Positions 806-27,686 of a stretch of DNA of 64,000 nucleotides are shown here, in pieces (positions within the stretch are counted from its first letter, which is position 1; each line of letters opens with the position of its first letter). The notes under the pieces are model-generated. The model had not been told where the DNA came from, made no database searches, and saw nothing but the letters and a program-made list of their open reading frames with translations. Origin of the DNA: Novosphingobium resinovorum (lineage in GTDB: Bacteria > Pseudomonadota > Alphaproteobacteria > Sphingomonadales > Sphingomonadaceae); the NCBI RefSeq assembly GCF_001742225.1, contig NZ_CP017075.1:2480001-2544000 (forward strand), written 5' to 3'. The translations under genes were made by a program, and so were the position numbers.

Positions 806-3562
<2,757 letters not shown>

Positions 3563-3587
3563 TCCACGCACGGCGTTGATAATCAGA

Positions 3588-3625
3588 AAGGGCGGGAGCG
3601 CACTGGATGCACTCCCGCCCTTTTG
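3588..3625 (+). terminator. Rho-independent terminator after gyrB
   Basis: GGGCGGGAG pairs with CTCCCGCCC across a short loop and is followed by TTTT. The stem extends through flanking A/T pairs. It starts 25 bases after the gyrB stop. Confidence 0.9.
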
Positions 3626-3691
3626 CGTGGGCGCTCTTGTCTTGCGCGCTTGCTGAGGCATCATGCTGCAACTGCACAGCTGGAGCCGCCC

Positions 3692-4873
3692 ATGCCCGAC
3701 ACGCTTCCCCTTTCGCTTGACGACGACCTGAAGCACGACCTCGTCACCCGCGGCTACGACCGGCGCAGCTTCGGACGGATCGCCGTGCTGCTCGGCGGCG
3801 GGGTCGCGGCGGCGCAGGTCATGCCAGGCTTTGGGCCTGCCTTCGCGCAAGTGCCCAAGGCCGCGACAGGGACCGTCCGGATCGGCGCCAACGAGTGCTG
3901 GACCGGCCCCTTCCCCGCCGGGGTGCAGGCCGCGATGAAGGCGGTCACGCAAGGCAACCGCTACGAACCCGACGGCGAGATCCAGAAGCTGCGCGACACC
4001 GTCGCGATGGTCGAACGGGTGCCTGCAGATCGCGTCGTCGCCTGGCCGGGCTCGAGCGATCCGCTCGCCCGCATCGCCGTCACGTTTGCGTCCCCTACAC
4101 GCGGGATCGTCACCGCCGACCCGACCTTCGAGCCGATCTGGCAGGTGGGCGAATGGCTGGGGGCCAAGGTGTCGAAAGTCCCGCTCACACCGACCAACGG
4201 TCATGACGTGCGCGCGATGCTCTCCGCCGATCCGAACGCGGGGCTCTACTATATCTGCACGCCCAACAACCCCACCGGCACGCTGACCCCGCTTGCCGAC
4301 ATCGAGTGGCTGCTCGCCGCCAAGCCCAAGGACGCGGTGGTGCTGGTGGACGAAGCCTATCTCCACTTCGCCGGCGCCCCCAGCGCGATGCCGCTTGCCG
4401 CGACGCGCAGCGACGTGATCGTGATGCGGTCGTTCTCCAAGCTGTTCGGGATGGCGGGCATGCGCCTTGGCCTGACGGTGGCCGATCCTGCGCTGCACAA
4501 GCGGATGATGCGCTACGACGGCGATCTGGTGACGATGATGCTGCCGATCACGGCCGTCGCCTGCGGGACCGCCTCACTGACGCAGACGGGCGAGATCGCC
4601 GCACGGCGGAGCCAGATGGAGGCCGCGCGCGAGGAAACGCTGGCGAACGTCGCGAAACGGGGCCTGAAGGTTCTGCCGGGCAGCCGCGCCAATATGTTCC
4701 TTCTCGAATGGAACGACCGTTCGCCCAAACAGATGAGCGAGGCGTTTCTGGCGCAGGGCGTACAGATCGGCCGCTCATGGAGCGCCTATCCGCGGATGTC
4801 GCGGATCACCGTGGGTTCGGCCGAGGACATGGCGAAGTTTCGGCTGGCACTGGACCGTATCCTAACTGGGTGA
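3692..4873 (+). CDS. Tat-signal PLP-dependent aminotransferase, histidinol-phosphate aminotransferase-like
   Basis: Class I/II PLP-dependent aminotransferase of the HisC-like group, 393 residues from the ATG at 3692. The fold is shown by NNPTGT, the VLVDEAYLHF segment and the PLP-lysine motif SFSKLFGMAGMRLGL. Unusually for HisC, residues 24-50 carry a twin-arginine signal (RRSFGRIAV, then a Gly/Ala-rich hydrophobic stretch ending AFAQ), which predicts export of the folded holoenzyme to the periplasm. It stands alone with no his genes nearby, so a role in histidine synthesis is not supported. The substrate is unknown. Confidence 0.85.
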   Translation: MPDTLPLSLDDDLKHDLVTRGYDRRSFGRIAVLLGGGVAAAQVMPGFGPAFAQVPKAATGTVRIGANECWTGPFPAGVQAAMKAVTQGNRYEPDGEIQKLRDTVAMVERVPADRVVAWPGSSDPLARIAVTFASPTRGIVTADPTFEPIWQVGEWLGAKVSKVPLTPTNGHDVRAMLSADPNAGLYYICTPNNPTGTLTPLADIEWLLAAKPKDAVVLVDEAYLHFAGAPSAMPLAATRSDVIVMRSFSKLFGMAGMRLGLTVADPALHKRMMRYDGDLVTMMLPITAVACGTASLTQTGEIAARRSQMEAAREETLANVAKRGLKVLPGSRANMFLLEWNDRSPKQMSEAFLAQGVQIGRSWSAYPRMSRITVGSAEDMAKFRLALDRILTG

Positions 4874-20014: not shown

Positions 20015-21256
20015 ATGGCCACCCTTTTTGCCACTACCGTCGCCAGCGCCAAACCGCGCGAGCGGGACTATAAGCTGTCTGATGGCGGTGGTCTCTATCT
20101 TCTTGTCCGTCCCAATGGCACGAAACTCTGGCGTCTCAATTACCGCTATCTTGAAAAGCACCGTACGCTTGCATTCGGGGCGTGGCCCGAGGTCAGCCTC
20201 GCTGATGCGCGGGATCGGCGAGACGATGCCCGACGCCTGCTCGCTGCCGGGACCGACCCTTCGCATCAACAGAAAGTTGATGCCGCTCGTGCCCGCGTCG
20301 AGGAGAACGACACATTCAAGCTCGTGGCCGAGGAGTGGGTGGCGAAGAACGAGCGGGAAGGTTTGGCCGAGGTCACGCTTAGAAAACTGCGCTGGCTCCT
20401 GGACAAGGCCTACGCCCGGATCGGTGATCGCCCGGTGGCAAAGATCACTGCGCAGGAGGTTCTGGCCGTTCTGCGCGCCGTCGAGGCAACGGGTCGGCAT
20501 GAGAGCGCGCGGCGCATGCGCAGCGTACTCAGCCGGGTCTTCCGTTACGCCATTGCAACGACGCGGGCCGAGCGAGATCCAGCGAGCGACCTTCGCGGCG
20601 CATTGACCGTTCCAAAGGCCAAGCACCTCGCCGCGATCACCACCGAGGATCGGGCGGGACACCTCATGCGAGCGATCGAAGGCTATTCCGGTCATGCCAT
20701 CACGCTTTTCGCCTTGAAACTGTCAGCCCATCTGTTCGTGCGTCCCGGTGAACTGCGACAGGCTGAGTGGGCGGAGTTCAACTTCGATCGCAGCGTCTGG
20801 AACATTCCTGCTGAGAAGATGAAGATGCGGCGGCCGCATCGCGTGCCCCTCTCGGCTCAGGTCGTGGGGCTATTCGAAGAGCTATGGGACCTCACAGGGA
20901 GCGGACGCTATTGCTTCCCTTCCTTCCGGACAGGCCAGCGCCCTATGTCTGAGAATACCGTCAATGCGGCGCTCAGGGCTCTTGGCTTTGGTCAGGAGGA
21001 GATGACTGCGCATGGGTTTCGGGCGATGGCCGCCACGCTCCTCAACGAGACCGGGCAATTCAATCCCGATGCGATTGAACGTCAGCTTGCACACATGGAA
21101 AACAATGGAGTGCGCCGCGCGTACACGCGCGGTGAATATTGGAACGAGCGAGTCGCGCTGATGCAGTTTTGGTCTGACGAGCTAGAACGTCTTCGCGTTG
21201 GAGCCAACATCCTCGAGCCCCACTTTGCAGCACGGAAGCGTCCAAGCGCGGACTGA
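20015..21256 (+). CDS. P4-type tyrosine recombinase/integrase
   Basis: Site-specific recombinase of 413 residues that would integrate and excise a genomic island at a tRNA 3' end. The N-terminal DUF4102-type domain shows KLSDGGGLYLLVRPNGTKLW, followed by a SAM-like core-binding domain (residues 95-190). The catalytic residues are Arg in VRPGELRQAEW (about 243), His-x-x-Arg in HGFRAMAATLLN (about 333) and Tyr in RRAYTRGEYW (about 370). It appears intact. The partner att site was not found in the window. Confidence 0.93.
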   Translation: MATLFATTVASAKPRERDYKLSDGGGLYLLVRPNGTKLWRLNYRYLEKHRTLAFGAWPEVSLADARDRRDDARRLLAAGTDPSHQQKVDAARARVEENDTFKLVAEEWVAKNEREGLAEVTLRKLRWLLDKAYARIGDRPVAKITAQEVLAVLRAVEATGRHESARRMRSVLSRVFRYAIATTRAERDPASDLRGALTVPKAKHLAAITTEDRAGHLMRAIEGYSGHAITLFALKLSAHLFVRPGELRQAEWAEFNFDRSVWNIPAEKMKMRRPHRVPLSAQVVGLFEELWDLTGSGRYCFPSFRTGQRPMSENTVNAALRALGFGQEEMTAHGFRAMAATLLNETGQFNPDAIERQLAHMENNGVRRAYTRGEYWNERVALMQFWSDELERLRVGANILEPHFAARKRPSAD

Positions 21257-21318
21257 CATGACTAAGAGGTTTACCATAGATTATAACCTAAATGACTGAC
21301 CGGCTGACGACGGTAGGA

Positions 21319-21447
21319 TCATGGGGCGGGGCTGAAGCCATCCTTGTGGGCATGTTCATCGAGATACCGCATGATGATGTCATCGGTGATGTTGCCGGAG
21401 GTGGTCGAGAAATAGCCCCTTTGCCTGAAGCGCTGTCCCCAATACCG
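21319..21447 (-). pseudogene. IS200/IS605-type TnpA C-terminal fragment
   Basis: The reverse strand ends in RGYFSTTSGNITDDIIMRYL followed by DEHAHKDGFSPAP and a stop. This matches the C-terminus of Y1-type transposases of the IS200/IS605 family. The catalytic HUH and Tyr parts are absent. It abuts the IS256-type fragment. Confidence 0.6.
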
Positions 21448-21504
21448 GGAGTGTCATGATTTCCGTGTCTGGGCGGGCATAACGGGTAAAAAGGGAGTCC
21501 CACT

Positions 21505-22206
21505 ATGTCACGACGCAAAGAGCCTGCCATACCGAATGAGCTTCTCGATCAGCTTTTGGCGGGCGGCGCTGCCAGCGCCGCCTTCGAGCAGGGCGGTCTG
21601 CTCGATTCGCTGAAGAAGGCGCTGACAGAGTGTGCCCTGAATGCGGAGATGGAACACTACCTCGCTGGCGAAGACGGCGCCGGCGACATGCGCAACGGCT
21701 ACGGTCGGAAGACGGTGATGACCGACACTGGCAAGTTGGCGATCGACGTGCCGCGCGACCGCCAGTCGAGCTTCGACCCACAGTTGATCGCCAAGTATCA
21801 ACGCCGCTTTCCTGGCTTCGACGACAAGATCGTGTCGATGTACGCGCGCGGCATGAGCACCCGCGAGATCACCAGGCATCTGCTGGCCGAAGTGGTGGGT
21901 GAACAGGTTGCCGCCGAGAACGCCAAGGCCACCACCAAGGTGCAGCGCGGCATCGTGCGCGATTGTCTTTCCGGGACTAACGGACGGGTAAAGCGCGATA
22001 GCTGGGTGCCGCGCTGGATGGCTTTCCCGGCATCGAGCTACACGGACCGGGGCGGAGTCGGCAGCGCCGAGCGCGCACAGCGGCTGGCGGCGCAGCTGGC
22101 GATGGGGCAAGAGCCGGAGGAGGTCGAGCCGGATGACCCTGTCAATACCGATGCGGAGGATACTCCCGTCGTCGAGGGTGAGAATGGGATGCTACAGGCG
22201 GCGTAA
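21505..22206 (+). pseudogene. Chimeric frame: IS256-type transposase N-terminus fused to the C-terminus of an accessory protein
   Basis: Residues 1 to about 128 are an IS256-family transposase N-terminus, with MRNGYGRKTVMTDTGKLAID, RDRQSSFDPQLIAKYQRRFP and SMYARGMSTREITRHL. The frame then continues without a break into VGEQVAAENAKATTKVQRGI and WMAFPASSYTDRGGVGSAER. This is the C-terminal tail of a plasmid or ICE protein, perhaps ParB-like (unsure). Both partners are truncated. The catalytic DDE part of the transposase is missing, so it is non-functional for transposition. Confidence 0.65.
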
Positions 22207-22555
22207 CTCCGATTGCTGGACCGGCGGCATGAGGCGTGTCGCCGGTTCTTCGTTGTGCTGTCGCACGTCGCTTCCGCTGCGCGTCGCGAGGTCGGGATGC
22301 GGGGCATCCCTCCGGCGGTCGCCGCGCTGGCGCGCGGCGGCGTTGGGCCTGATCGGCTCCAGGGTGACGGGGGGCGTCGCTGCCCTGTAGCCCCGCCTCG
22401 GCGGGCCGCAACCCGTCCGCTGCGCGACCGCGTCTTCCACTTCGTTGCAGCCCTTCGGGTGCCCCCCGCCTCACCCGGCGGGGCTGTCGGTCCGCTCCTG
22501 CCGCCCCCCGCCACCCTGGCGCCGGTCGATGGCGGTTGAGGAAAGGAAGACCAAG
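22207..22555. other. Non-coding spacer before ardC
   Basis: A very GC-rich stretch of about 350 bases with short inverted GC motifs. The last part contains GAGGAAAGGAAG, the ribosome site for ardC. No gene is seen. Confidence 0.5.
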
Positions 22556-23896
22556 ATGAGCAGGACCGAACGCGGAAGCCTCTATGCGCAAGTCACCGCC
22601 AAGATCATCGCCGAACTGAAAGAGGGCCGGTTGCCATGGGCGCAGCCATGGGATGCCTCGCGGTGTCCCTGCGCCATGCCGCACAACGGGGTGACCGGAA
22701 GGCCGTATTCCGGAATAAACGTGCTGATCCTGTGGGCCGAAGGTGTGGGCGGGGGCTACAGTTCCCAGCGCTGGCTTACCTATCGGCAGGCGGCGGCAGC
22801 GGGCGGCAATGTCCGGCGCGGGGAGAAGGGAACGGTTGTATGCTATGCCGACCGCTTCATTCCCAAGGCCGAAGCCGAGCGGGTAGCGGGCAAGGATCGG
22901 GACGCAAGGACCGTCGCCTTCCTCAAGCGCTTCGTGGTGTTCAACGTCGATCAATGCGAGGGGCTAGCGGAAGACCTAACCGCCGCCGCGATCCTCCCCG
23001 ATCCGGTCATGGCCATCGCCGACGCCGACCGCGTCATTGCCGCATCGGGGGCGGATTTTCGGATCGGCGGGAGCAAGGCCTTCTATTCGCCGACGCAGCA
23101 CTATGTGCAGGTGCCGCCGCAGGCGGCGTTCCATCATCCGGTGAACTGGTATCGCACCGCGCTCCACGAACTGGGGCATTTCGCCGGAGGCAAAGGGCGG
23201 CTGGAACGGGATCAGACCGGGCGGTTCGGTTCGGCTTCGTACGCCCGGGAAGAACTGGTTGTGCGCCGTGTCGGCGCGAATAAAGGAGTGAAGACATGTC
23301 TTCTGGATAGCTGGGAAAATCCATGCGTCCCCGACTTACCGGTGCCGGTGATGAGCCGGCTGAAATCCCGAAAGGGAAACGGGACCATAGCATGTCGGGA
23401 AAAGGCCCAAACTGCCGAAACCATCGTAGGTCGGGCGGGTCATCGCAAGGTGCGTACGGCGAAAGCTACACTGCCTGAACTCCAGTCCTCAGGGTTTTAT
23501 CCTCGACAGCGGCGCAGCGATGGTTGCAACACCGCACCGCGCAGAGATCGGTTGCCACAAGGCACTCCACGCCGGACAACTCAAACCGCTCGACAGCGGC
23601 GACATGCAAGCACGGAGAGCCGGATGATGGGAAACTATCACGTCCGGTTCGGTGGGCGGGAGAGGCGTGTCCTCATCGAGGCACGACCGTCCCGACCCAA
23701 TGCCGAGATGACGGCGGCTTTCGCCTGCGCTGCGCTTGGTATCCAGCCCACCGTTCGCCACGCCGATTACATCGGGGCATGGTTGGAGGTGCTACGCGCC
23801 GACGACAAGGCGATCTTCCGCGCGGCAAGCGCCGCGAGCAAGGGCGCCGACTATCTCCTCAAAGGCGCCGAGGGAGGCGAGCAGGGGCAAGCCTGA
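22556..23896 (+). CDS. ardC: ArdC-type antirestriction/ssDNA-binding zincin, split by a group II intron
   Basis: Exon 1 (22556-23260, 235 codons) and exon 2 (23702-23896, 64 codons plus stop) join to a 299-residue ArdC, the normal length. The N-terminal ssDNA-binding domain shows PWAQPWD and GRPYSGINVLILW; the metallopeptidase domain has TALHELGHFAGGKGRLERD. At the junction, ASYAREELV joins AEMTAAFACAALG exactly as in uninterrupted ArdC proteins. The unspliced gene stays open, giving a 446-residue protein with 147 foreign residues after the HELGH region. ArdC proteins of conjugative plasmids protect incoming DNA from restriction, so this gene marks the region as conjugative or plasmid-derived. 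An ATG at 22529 is a less likely start. Confidence 0.85.
   Translation: MSRTERGSLYAQVTAKIIAELKEGRLPWAQPWDASRCPCAMPHNGVTGRPYSGINVLILWAEGVGGGYSSQRWLTYRQAAAAGGNVRRGEKGTVVCYADRFIPKAEAERVAGKDRDARTVAFLKRFVVFNVDQCEGLAEDLTAAAILPDPVMAIADADRVIAASGADFRIGGSKAFYSPTQHYVQVPPQAAFHHPVNWYRTALHELGHFAGGKGRLERDQTGRFGSASYAREELVVRRVGANKGVKTCLLDSWENPCVPDLPVPVMSRLKSRKGNGTIACREKAQTAETIVGRAGHRKVRTAKATLPELQSSGFYPRQRRSDGCNTAPRRDRLPQGTPRRTTQTARQRRHASTESRMMGNYHVRFGGRERRVLIEARPSRPNAEMTAAFACAALGIQPTVRHADYIGAWLEVLRADDKAIFRAASAASKGADYLLKGAEGGEQGQA
23261..23701 (+). ncRNA. Group II intron without a maturase ORF, 441 nt, inside ardC
   Basis: The 5' end is GTGCGCC. Domain V (23617-23650) is complete at 34 nt: an AGC triad in the lower stem (GAGCCGGA with TCCGGTTC), a 2-nt CG bulge, and an upper stem capped by GAAA. 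Domain VI follows, with GGGCGGGA pairing to TCCCG-CCC and a bulged A at 23695, seven nucleotides from the 3' end. The intron ends CCCAAT. AACCA at 23419-23423 could be EBS1 for TGGTT at the end of exon 1. There is no reverse transcriptase, so mobility would need a maturase in trans. Intron subclass was not determined. Confidence 0.9.
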
Positions 23897-26187: not shown

Positions 26188-26516
26188 TTATGAGAACGCC
26201 GTATGCAGCTTGCCCGACAGCACCAGTGGCGCTTGGACAAGGTCGTGCCAGCCCCAATGATAAGTTCGTGTTCTAGGCAGGTGGGGAGCATTGCGTCGAG
26301 TGCCGCGTCGATGGCGAGCAAGGTATCGCGCAGACAGTTCTGCACCTCCGCGACGGGTATCTTCAGTTGCCTGCCAATCTCGTCGTAGCCAAGCTCGTCC
26401 ACCCGATGCAGCAGGAACACGCTCCGCTTCAAGGGCGGGAGCCGATATACCGCCTCTGTGTACACGGCTCTGCACTCGGTGCAGATTTCTGCGTCGGCGG
26501 TTCGCTTACGACGCAC
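26178..26516 (-). CDS. Sigma-70 region-4-like protein
   Basis: A 112-residue protein with a GTG start at 26516. EAVYRLPPLKRSVFLLHRVD followed by ELGYDEIGRQLKIPVAEVQN is a sigma-factor region 4 helix-turn-helix; regions 1-2 are absent. The start overlaps the end of the HEPN gene by 11 bases, indicating coupled translation. It also overlaps the converging transglutaminase-like gene by 10 bases at the other end. A stand-alone sigma4-like protein could be a regulator of the HEPN partner. Confidence 0.6.
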   Translation of the reverse strand: MRRKRTADAEICTECRAVYTEAVYRLPPLKRSVFLLHRVDELGYDEIGRQLKIPVAEVQNCLRDTLLAIDAALDAMLPTCLEHELIIGAGTTLSKRHWCCRASCIRRSHNYS

Positions 26517-27432
26517 GGCATAGCTCGTCACTGGCGGGCGTCGGAAGCTCCAGCTCCGCGCCGCAGTGTGCGGCCACCAGCGCGTGAAGGGTTCTGGTAC
26601 GATCCATCGCCCATGCCAGTTCCTCCCGACTGATGCGGTAGCGGCGCCCATAGCGCACCTCGACATAGGCCCGGCGGATGCAGCCGAAAGCGCGCCGCTC
26701 GAACGGCGTTTCGCGGGGCCATGCTTCGCGCAATCGGCCGACCAGCATCTCCGCGCTCTCGCGCAGTTCGTCCAGCGCGTGGGTGCGTGGCCCGTGCAGA
26801 GTGAGCGACCATAGTATACACTGATAGGAATGCTCGCACGCCTGATGCAGGAGCAGCGCAGCCATCGGCGCATTCCCCTGCCATTGATAGAAAGCTGCGC
26901 CGTTCAGGAAGTCGGTGGCACGCGCGTACCAATGGGCATATTCCGCGCGTCCAGCGGCAATGCGATCCGGGGCGGGCATTCTGTGCGGCGACTGCAAGCG
27001 CAATCCCTCTGACTGATACAGCGCGATGCCCTGACTGGCGATGCTAACGAAATGCGGCACGCCCTCGGCAAGAGCAGCGTTGATCCGCTCCAGACTTTCG
27101 ACGTCGAGGCGTACTTGGTGGGTGATCTCGCCGAGCTCCCAAGCGCGACGCAGTCGGTCGCGCACGTGCCGCCAGTCGCGATCGCTGCGCGCCAGCCGAG
27201 GGTAATTGACGATCACCAGCAAGCGGAATGCTTCTCCCGGCGCGACCTCACCCCAATCCGTCCCGGCATGGGGGCGGTGGAGGACCAGCGCGAGGACGCG
27301 GCCCGCCCTGAGATGTTTGGAGCATCGGCCTTTAGTTGTTTCCTCGAATTCCTCAAACAGGATCGTGGCGACGCGAAGAAGCTCCTTGTGGACCGGAGCG
27401 GGTATGTGATCGGCGTCGGCGCGCAACATCAT
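26506..27432 (-). CDS. HEPN-domain protein with degenerate nucleotidyltransferase N-terminus
   Basis: A 308-residue protein starting MMLRADADHIPAPVHKELLR, with AGGGGA upstream. The N-terminal half follows the layout of MNT-type nucleotidyltransferases (LALVLHRPHAGTDWGEV, then FRLLVIVNYPRLARSDRDW), but the G-S motif and D-x-D metal ligands are not there. The C-terminal half is a HEPN domain (APMAALLLHQACEHSYQCIL, RAYVEVRYGRRYRISREELA) ending in RTRTLH, an R-x4-H motif typical of HEPN ribonucleases. An active MNT/HEPN fusion would normally control the RNase; here the transferase seems inactive. Confidence 0.75.
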   Translation of the reverse strand: MMLRADADHIPAPVHKELLRVATILFEEFEETTKGRCSKHLRAGRVLALVLHRPHAGTDWGEVAPGEAFRLLVIVNYPRLARSDRDWRHVRDRLRRAWELGEITHQVRLDVESLERINAALAEGVPHFVSIASQGIALYQSEGLRLQSPHRMPAPDRIAAGRAEYAHWYARATDFLNGAAFYQWQGNAPMAALLLHQACEHSYQCILWSLTLHGPRTHALDELRESAEMLVGRLREAWPRETPFERRAFGCIRRAYVEVRYGRRYRISREELAWAMDRTRTLHALVAAHCGAELELPTPASDELCRAS

Positions 27433-27686
27433 GCCAATTTCCCCTAACGGCTGCGCTGGGGCCACGTTAGGCACGAAGAACTAATCGCTTCATCCACGCG
27501 GTCCAGCGGGGCACGATCAGGTGGAGTGATCGCGGTAGGTACTAAGCTTACCCTATAGACGCCATGCATGGGGACAGAGACCAATGCGCAGCGCGATGTG
27601 CTGAACTGCGAATCATAGGAGACCAAGCGTGTCATCAGGCTGCCTTCCTTGAGCCACCCGGAAAGAGCCGCGGGCTGCGCCGCAGC
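27433..27686. other. Intergenic region with a doubtful minus-strand frame
   Basis: A minus-strand frame (MTRLVSYDSQFSTSRCALVS and onwards, ending 27444) has no ribosome site or domain, and overlaps the HEPN promoter. I regard it as non-coding. Confidence 0.4.

Follow-up and report, generated by a model that had tools for sequence, protein, structure and literature searches.

The ardC gene of the window (the whole 64-kb stretch of Novosphingobium DNA analyzed here) contains an in-frame insert with the ends of a group II intron. The locus raises the question of whether this insert is a small working intron, as a preliminary description proposed, or the remains of a larger one. The group II intron sequence spans positions 23261–23701 (441 nt, 147 codons), and its GTGCG 5′ end at 23261 is confirmed. 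A covariance-model search with Rfam matched domains V and VI at 23615–23701 (RF00029, 63.8 bits, gathering score 40), the only match above a gathering score in the 64-kb window. This match bears out the domain V, the domain VI and the bulged A seven nucleotides from the 3′ end that had previously been recognized from the sequence alone (Table 1).

The 5′ GUGCG and 3′ AY intron ends are present at a boundary that can be set independently by an intronless ArdC, P0029. The length of this protein is exactly that of the two exon products end to end (235 + 64 = 299 aa), which fixes the empty site and upholds the earlier proposal that the flanking exons join to a normal ArdC. Residues 1–235 of P0029 are 90.2% identical to the 5′ exon product, and identity to the 3′ exon product is 98.4% over 63 of its 64 aa. 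ORF 22445–23896 runs through exon, insert and exon without a stop, as described before; the insert has no stop in frame 0 versus seven and three in the other two frames. The insert is a group II intron by descent, in frame in ardC and with exact boundaries. At E ≤ 1, Rfam identified no domain I–IV family even in an intact relative (the YBL2 intron described below) and so is unable to settle which domains are missing. One domain V pattern gave no matches in viral contigs.

The ardC gene and its product

The window ArdC frame matches the ArdcN (126.7 bits) and MPTase-PolyVal (146.1 bits) Pfam domains. R388 ArdC (PDB 6i89 and 6sna) has the same two domains and aligns over both exons (PMC7213743). 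Compared with R388 ArdC, the window frame is 147 residues longer, and the extra stretch follows EELV, two residues past the equivalent of E229, which is among the metal ligands reported for R388 ArdC (PMC7213743). The glutamate helix of the gluzincin fold is split by the insert in the window ArdC and does not occur there in uninterrupted form. R388 ArdC carrying E229A is reported to have remained able to support conjugation into P. putida (PMC7213743), and an ArdC without protease activity may therefore still be of use.

An AlphaFold2 model of the 446-aa ArdC (33 sequences) was weak overall (mean pLDDT 61.3, pTM 0.44). Block means were 78–96 at residues 41–210, below 50 at residues 224–327 and 329–373, and about 60–70 in the C-terminal helices. 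The gene would appear to be either dead or the source of, at most, one 446-aa protein. The genome contains ten ArdcN loci in all, nine besides the window ardC.

Just upstream of ardC, at 20015–22206, the window encodes a tyrosine-type integrase and then a Mutator-family transposase that matches only the first 139 of 379 model positions; by its gene content this looks to be a partly decayed mobile region. A 322-aa HEPN-domain protein (28 bits, cut-off 22) is encoded on the reverse strand at 26506–27474.

Table 1. Features of the interrupted ardC gene, its insert and the open host frame of intact relatives (window positions unless a locus is named).
Feature	Position	Strand	Basis
ardC 5′ exon (ArdcN and start of MPTase-PolyVal), ends ...REELV	22556–23260	+	PF08401, PF18818
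ardC 3′ exon (AEMTAAF...) with stop codon	23702–23896	+	98.4% identity to P0029 over 63 aa
Continuous 446-aa frame: ArdC 235 aa, 147-aa insert, 64 aa	22556–23896	+	
Kept 5′ intron part, nt 1–291 (5′ part of domain I)	23261–23551	+	285/291 identical to G497, 281/291 to YBL2
Candidate EBS2 (TCCTCG), kept	23500–23505	+	Exon-pairing scan
Remnant of IEP C-terminus (YBL2 IEP residues 605–630)	23547–23624	+	92% identity; YBL2 DNA match from 23553
Putative deletion junction, about 2131 nt gone; TT common to both break points if the ancestor was G497-like	23552–23553	+	
Domain V, intact, 34 nt	23617–23650	+	RF00029 and plastid group II D5 families
Domain VI and intron 3′ end, branch-point-like A at 23695 (−7 from 3′ end)	23651–23701	+	RF00029 alignment
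Host frame through domains I–III to TGATG	L008:5001–5641; L064:1258–1899; L065:1241–1882; L044 (reverse complement) 1275–1916		

Intact relatives and the internal deletion

A blastn search of plasmids identified a 2569-nt intron at the same ArdC codon in plasmid 2pYBL2-2 of Sphingobium sp. YBL2 (NZ_CP010956.1). The YBL2 intron has the same domain V as the window copy and matches it at 281/291 nt (96.6%) in the 5′ part and 143/149 nt (96.0%) at the 3′ end. The 2.1 kb between these two ends comprises the rest of the ribozyme and an intron-encoded protein (IEP), a 630-aa reverse transcriptase/maturase/HNH protein (Pfam RVT_1, Intron_maturas2 (PF01348) and an AI2M-like HNH). The YBL2 intron thus has a full set of domains I–III (about 600 nt) and an IEP, whereas the window copy has neither. 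A second genome of the same genus (G497) carries the intron as two identical copies of 2572 nt, one in each of two ArdC loci on different contigs (285/291 and 145/149 nt identical to the window copy), which suggests recent mobility.

A further copy occupies the same ArdC codon in Candidatus Symbiopectobacterium NZEC151 (L044). The IEP of this copy (reverse complement, 1880–3773) is split near residue 456 into two tblastn pieces in different frames, an apparent frameshift, and the copy may itself be decaying. The plasmid records examined numbered 10 of 605 in one search and 2 of 39 in another. We used eight of 15 related loci, omitting three that end just before domain V (L039, L045 and L050), three without a 5′ end in the stretch (L040, L047 and L048) and one that consists of the last 262 nt only (L043).

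Relative to the intact introns, the window copy has an internal deletion of about 2.13 kb; what it keeps is nt 1–291 and some 149 nt at the 3′ end. The 3′ part of domain I is gone, neither domain II nor domain III remains, and the IEP is reduced to its last 26 codons. With nt 1–640 of the YBL2 intron as query, G497 matches over nt 1–640 and the window genome over nt 1–291 only (best two candidates per genome). An alignment of nt 1–640 of 20 relatives contains about 300 nt of conserved sequence between nt 291 and the IEP start, and the stretch from nt 292 to about 600, including domains II and III, is absent from the window copy. In our own assignment of domain names to YBL2 positions, the closing helix of domain I pairs nt 6–11 with nt 428–433, domain II spans nt 436–471 and domain III spans nt 476–597; the window copy does not contain a complete domain I with its closing helix.

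RNAalifold predicted 119 consensus pairs in domains I–III of 21 relatives (G497 added), 79 of which have at least one both-side change. A break at nt 291 keeps 40 of these pairs, deprives 38 (six helices) of their 3′ strand and deletes 41 entirely. Among the 38 break-spanning pairs, 97.6% of 793 cells are paired, versus 32–46% when the register is slid, and both-side changes occur in 128 cells, versus a shuffled mean of 41.9 (0 of 500 shuffles as high). Compared with shuffled sequence, the kept 3′ part offers no clearly better complement to the 5′ strands left without a partner.

The junction reads CGG-TT-GCCA, and the left and right break points in G497 read CGGTT/TGCG and CCTT/GCCA, respectively. 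Assuming that the ancestor's sequence was like that of G497, a single 2131-nt deletion at a 2-nt repeat is all that would be needed. Substitutions of the window copy's own flank the junction (6/291 and 4/149 nt versus G497).

An exon-pairing scan of 21 copies (the window copy and 20 relatives) places the best 5′-exon-pairing (EBS1) column at about nt 290–300, at the junction (z 6.5). Meso pairs at 6/6 positions in this column (CCATAA/TTATGG), CFD2 and Poly form five Watson–Crick pairs and one wobble, and Sclo pairs at 6/6 positions three columns further on (TGTCTT/AAGACA). At least 5/6 positions are paired in six of the 21 copies, or in eight if two copies are allowed a three-column shift; the other 13, including all four of the window's own lineage, fall below 5/6. 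Within the ArdC-site lineage, Symbiopectobacterium pairs best (5/6, one column away) and YBL2 pairs poorly. The EBS1 hairpin region, as placed via these more distant relatives, therefore appears to be deleted in the window copy.

The candidate EBS2 pairs at 6/6 positions in YBL2 and in Symbiopectobacterium (in the latter with a compensating change) and at 5/6 in a deltaproteobacterial copy, while the window's own IBS2 (GGAAGA) pairs with it at only 4/6. A 5-bp match between nt 159–163 and the window's 5′ exon is probably due to chance. The hairpin CCTGAA..TCAGG (nt ~213–233) was considered as a candidate EBS1 and rejected, because its loop stays conserved among introns whose targets differ.

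Splicing, exonization and other readings of the insert

These comparisons indicate that the window insert is not the complete ORF-less intron of the preliminary description: only the extremities of the ribozyme remain, and its middle, which includes the probable EBS1 hairpin region, the remainder of domain I and domains II–III, is missing. The two halves align to the YBL2 intron on either side of its IEP, and we considered the copy as a neat natural ΔORF intron. We rejected this reading because the EBS1 scan peaks at the junction and about 300 nt of conserved ribozyme are missing.

The insert is very probably a splicing-dead internal-deletion derivative of a mobile group II intron located at the ardC codon EEL[V/I]↓AE, in the glutamate helix. 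One deletion, perhaps at the 2-nt TT microhomology, would have removed 2131 nt and left an RNA unable to fold the domain I scaffold or to dock the 5′ exon, and hence unable to splice. Neither choice of the 5′ splice site nor attack on it is expected, because the domain I closing helices and the EBS1-type hairpin region are gone; in the Clostridium tetani intron C.te.I1, disruption of EBS1 or IBS1 is reported to have blocked self-splicing (PMC3919590). The loss of domains II–III alone is a weaker argument, because a review calls these domains dispensable for catalysis (PMC3073962). If the gene is expressed, its sole product would be a 446-aa ArdC with an untouched ssDNA-binding domain and a metalloprotease helix split by a 147-aa, probably disordered insert.

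A functional ORF-less mini-intron, spliced with a maturase acting in trans or spliced partially to yield both spliced and unspliced ArdC, would account for the perfect domain V, the domain VI, the intron ends and the exons. ORF-less bacterial introns are believed to depend on an IEP supplied in trans (PMC4424553), and the genome contains two other IEPs. However, a search with the YBL2 IEP (11 of 11 candidates scored) identified no cognate IEP in the genome; its only matches were the 26 C-terminal residues left in the window copy and two reverse transcriptases, which are just 36–38% identical over part of their length. These two match PF08388, not PF01348 and the HNH family matched by the cognate protein. 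The IEP-carrying relative for which the preliminary description proposed a search was not among the results. Of the intron-encoded reverse transcriptase/maturase typical of mobile introns, the window copy has residues 605–630 only, and the closely related IEP elsewhere in the genome that is typical of trans-helped ORF-less introns was not found. The genome has at least three other RF00029 matches (C1:1273753–1274149, C3:250049–250561 and C3:468308; 150 of 343 candidates scored), two of which adjoin GIIM-type IEPs and one of which has no GIIM match nearby. ORF-less bacterial introns (PMC4424553), including C.te.I1 (PMC3919590), likewise have no IEP of their own. Unlike the window copy, they are described as splicing-only introns with a working ribozyme and nearly always a related IEP in the genome, and C.te.I1 self-splices in vitro without an IEP (PMC3919590). 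With the middle of the ribozyme lost, splicing by a trans-acting maturase seems very unlikely, as does partial splicing into two ArdC forms, and we consider a working mini-intron a distant prospect.

Intact ends and an intact domain V would also be expected of a split intron whose domain I–III piece is transcribed elsewhere, as in the tripartite psaA intron 1 of Chlamydomonas; natural tripartite introns do exist in organelles (PMC4424553). Yet a search of the genome (five contigs, 6.9 Mb) with the deleted 2.13 kb (2129 nt as searched) gave no match among the 40 of 84 candidates that were scored. The only control for this search, covering nt 1–640, is the YBL2 query that finds the whole of this stretch in G497 and nt 1–291 alone in the window genome (best two candidates per genome). 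The authors of PMC3919590 knew of no natural bacterial trans-splicing intron, and we regard this arrangement as extremely improbable. It is also highly improbable that the 2.13-kb deletion is an assembly or sequencing artefact in a strain with an intact intron. The deletion's single occurrence and short-microhomology junction would fit such an artefact, but the genome assembly (G000) consists of five contigs, no intact copy was found in it, and the copy's own substitutions lie on both sides of the junction.

Selection could instead have exonized the intron, the in-frame deletion being kept as the 446-aa ArdC works and its ssDNA-binding domain is enough. Of all the internal deletions that could occur, only 0.69% in YBL2 and 1.6% in G497 would result in an open in-frame insert; for G497 the share is 0.85% when the deletion must spare at least 250 nt on the 5′ side and 87 nt on the 3′ side. 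By chance, 76 of 4000 dinucleotide shuffles of the window insert are open. The conjugation supported by R388 ArdC with E229 mutated (PMC7213743) is consistent with this account, as is a predicted structure in which residues 41–210, and not the insert, are modelled with confidence. The open frame is suggestive, but it is a post hoc observation on one case (n = 1), and no second example of this form appeared in the protein and genome searches made. Moreover, the nine other ArdcN loci may make the window ardC dispensable, and six differences in 291 nt are too few for a selection test. We therefore hold exonization under selection to be unlikely.

Protein-level conservation of the insert was rejected, because differences to the relatives show no excess at third codon positions. 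Differences at codon positions 1/2/3 are 3/6/1 between the window and YBL2, 3/1/2 between the window and G497, 10/16/15 between the window and Symbiopectobacterium, 29/47/36 between YBL2 and Symbiopectobacterium, and 11/15/10 between G497 and YBL2. The conserved part of the insert appears to be conserved as RNA rather than as protein. Searching with the translated insert identified 28 proteins. In 27 of them the match is to the insert's first part (30 to about 104 residues, no more than 71% of the 147), since they have the same intron at the same ArdC site; one shares the last part and none spans both halves. For ArdC homologues that conserve the insert, which the preliminary description had named as evidence against an intron, the outcome is mixed: they exist for the first part, by way of the same-site intron, but no protein covers the whole.

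As a truncated group II intron, the window feature shares the outcome of many bacterial introns: truncated and inactivated copies are reported to form the majority of bacterial group II introns and, as a class, are likewise partial, inactive and near other mobile DNA (PMC4424553). It is unusual in that it keeps both ends, with an internal loss in frame with the host gene. A related intron on a Mesorhizobium amorphae plasmid (L043, oriented, 2730–2991) is represented by its last 262 nt only (91% identical to L028) and is apparently a 5′-truncated copy, unlike the internal deletion of the window copy. Even where domain V is perfect and the ends and exons are clean, an intron need not work, as most of the ribozyme may be absent between them; ORF-less calls made from domain V therefore need a check of domains I–III.

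The host frame in intact relatives

The 27 proteins that share the first part of the insert are read-throughs at EEL(V/I/C/L) of ArdC. Twenty-three end 212–215 residues past the insertion, and the other four end 141–168 residues past it, possibly at contig ends. P0028 seems to leave and re-enter the frame, yet it is 213 long. This protein set is biased, in that copies whose frame stops within roughly the first 25 codons escape the search, just where other relatives stop, and only copies found by DNA search are free of this bias.

That the open frame is meaningful is better supported for this lineage than for the window copy by itself. All three distinct full-length introns found at the ArdC codon by DNA search (YBL2, G497 and Symbiopectobacterium) leave the host frame open through the ribozyme for 636–639 nt, to a stop at nt 637–640. 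Equally open frames occur in 3 of 5000 dinucleotide shuffles for YBL2 and 0 of 5000 for Symbiopectobacterium. The stop is a TGA within TGCTGATG and overlaps the apparent ATG of the IEP (TGATG, or UGAUG in the RNA). We used this ATG as the start of the IEP. Among 11 relatives with a deposited annotation, the annotated start is the corresponding one in six and another in five; in YBL2, one of the five, it lies 36 nt further upstream in the same frame.

In all 20 relatives examined, the IEP frame begins at a stop-start overlap (TGATG or TAATG). In the 18 relatives that are not at the ArdC codon, the frame that ends at this overlap is closed inside the intron. The host frame, taken as the longest upstream open frame (by length rather than gene by gene), stops at nt 9–31 in 11 of 11 relatives at other sites with an identifiable host frame; the remaining seven of the 18 (Afab, Rmet, Rhiz, Mcam, Rdic, TKS and RW1) have no upstream frame open for at least 300 nt and were omitted. 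Given the codon-position counts above, what is kept in the ArdC-site lineage seems to be an absence of stops, not a peptide.

These observations raise the possibility, about which we are almost evenly divided, that the window relic belongs to an intron lineage specialized for the metal-ligand codons of ardC, whose maturase is expressed through translational coupling. Ribosomes on unspliced ArdC RNA would read 636–639 nt of domains I–III in the host frame, stop at the UGA that overlaps the maturase AUG and restart there, tying intron activity to translation of the host gene. The in-frame window relic would then be a by-product of a permanently open host frame. According to one review, bacterial IEPs have their own expression signals, organellar IEPs are fused to the 5′ exon, most group I introns have a stop just inside the intron, and ribosomes that enter an intron can hinder its folding (PMC3073962). 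The intact relatives resemble the organellar 5′-exon-fused ORFs (PMC3073962) in that the host frame continues into the intron; they differ in being bacterial and in having a frame that is not fused and ends in a UGA overlapping the apparent IEP AUG. The arrangement would be a third case beside own-signal and 5′-exon-fused IEPs. Literature searches on ArdC with introns and on bacterial group II IEPs and host translation listed no description of this arrangement, most subscription papers lying outside their reach. A lineage that seemingly keeps its ribozyme free of host-frame stops offers a testable case of coupled translation, splicing and maturase expression, and this part is more interesting than the window relic and worth pursuing.

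Related introns also occur at other targets. A copy in a deltaproteobacterial MAG (L046:2236–4822) lies in an unrelated, non-ArdC frame at EEQI↓AEL, an apparent off-target insertion in which the target mimics the ArdC site. Related introns of Sphingobium sp. CFD-2, Polymorphobacter and Sinorhizobium medicae (L031:2394, L035:2394 and L036:2392) appear to be placed at a second conserved ArdC site, VFN↓D, and ArdC seems to be a target of repeated insertion by this intron clade. Within domain I of the window copy, nt 62–139 (23322–23399) are about 90% identical (69–70 of 77–78) to introns of Rhizorhabdus and Sphingobium plasmids (L029, L030 and L037), while flanking segments match at 63–87% of ungapped columns with many gaps. 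This pattern looks mosaic, as if segments had been exchanged between introns.
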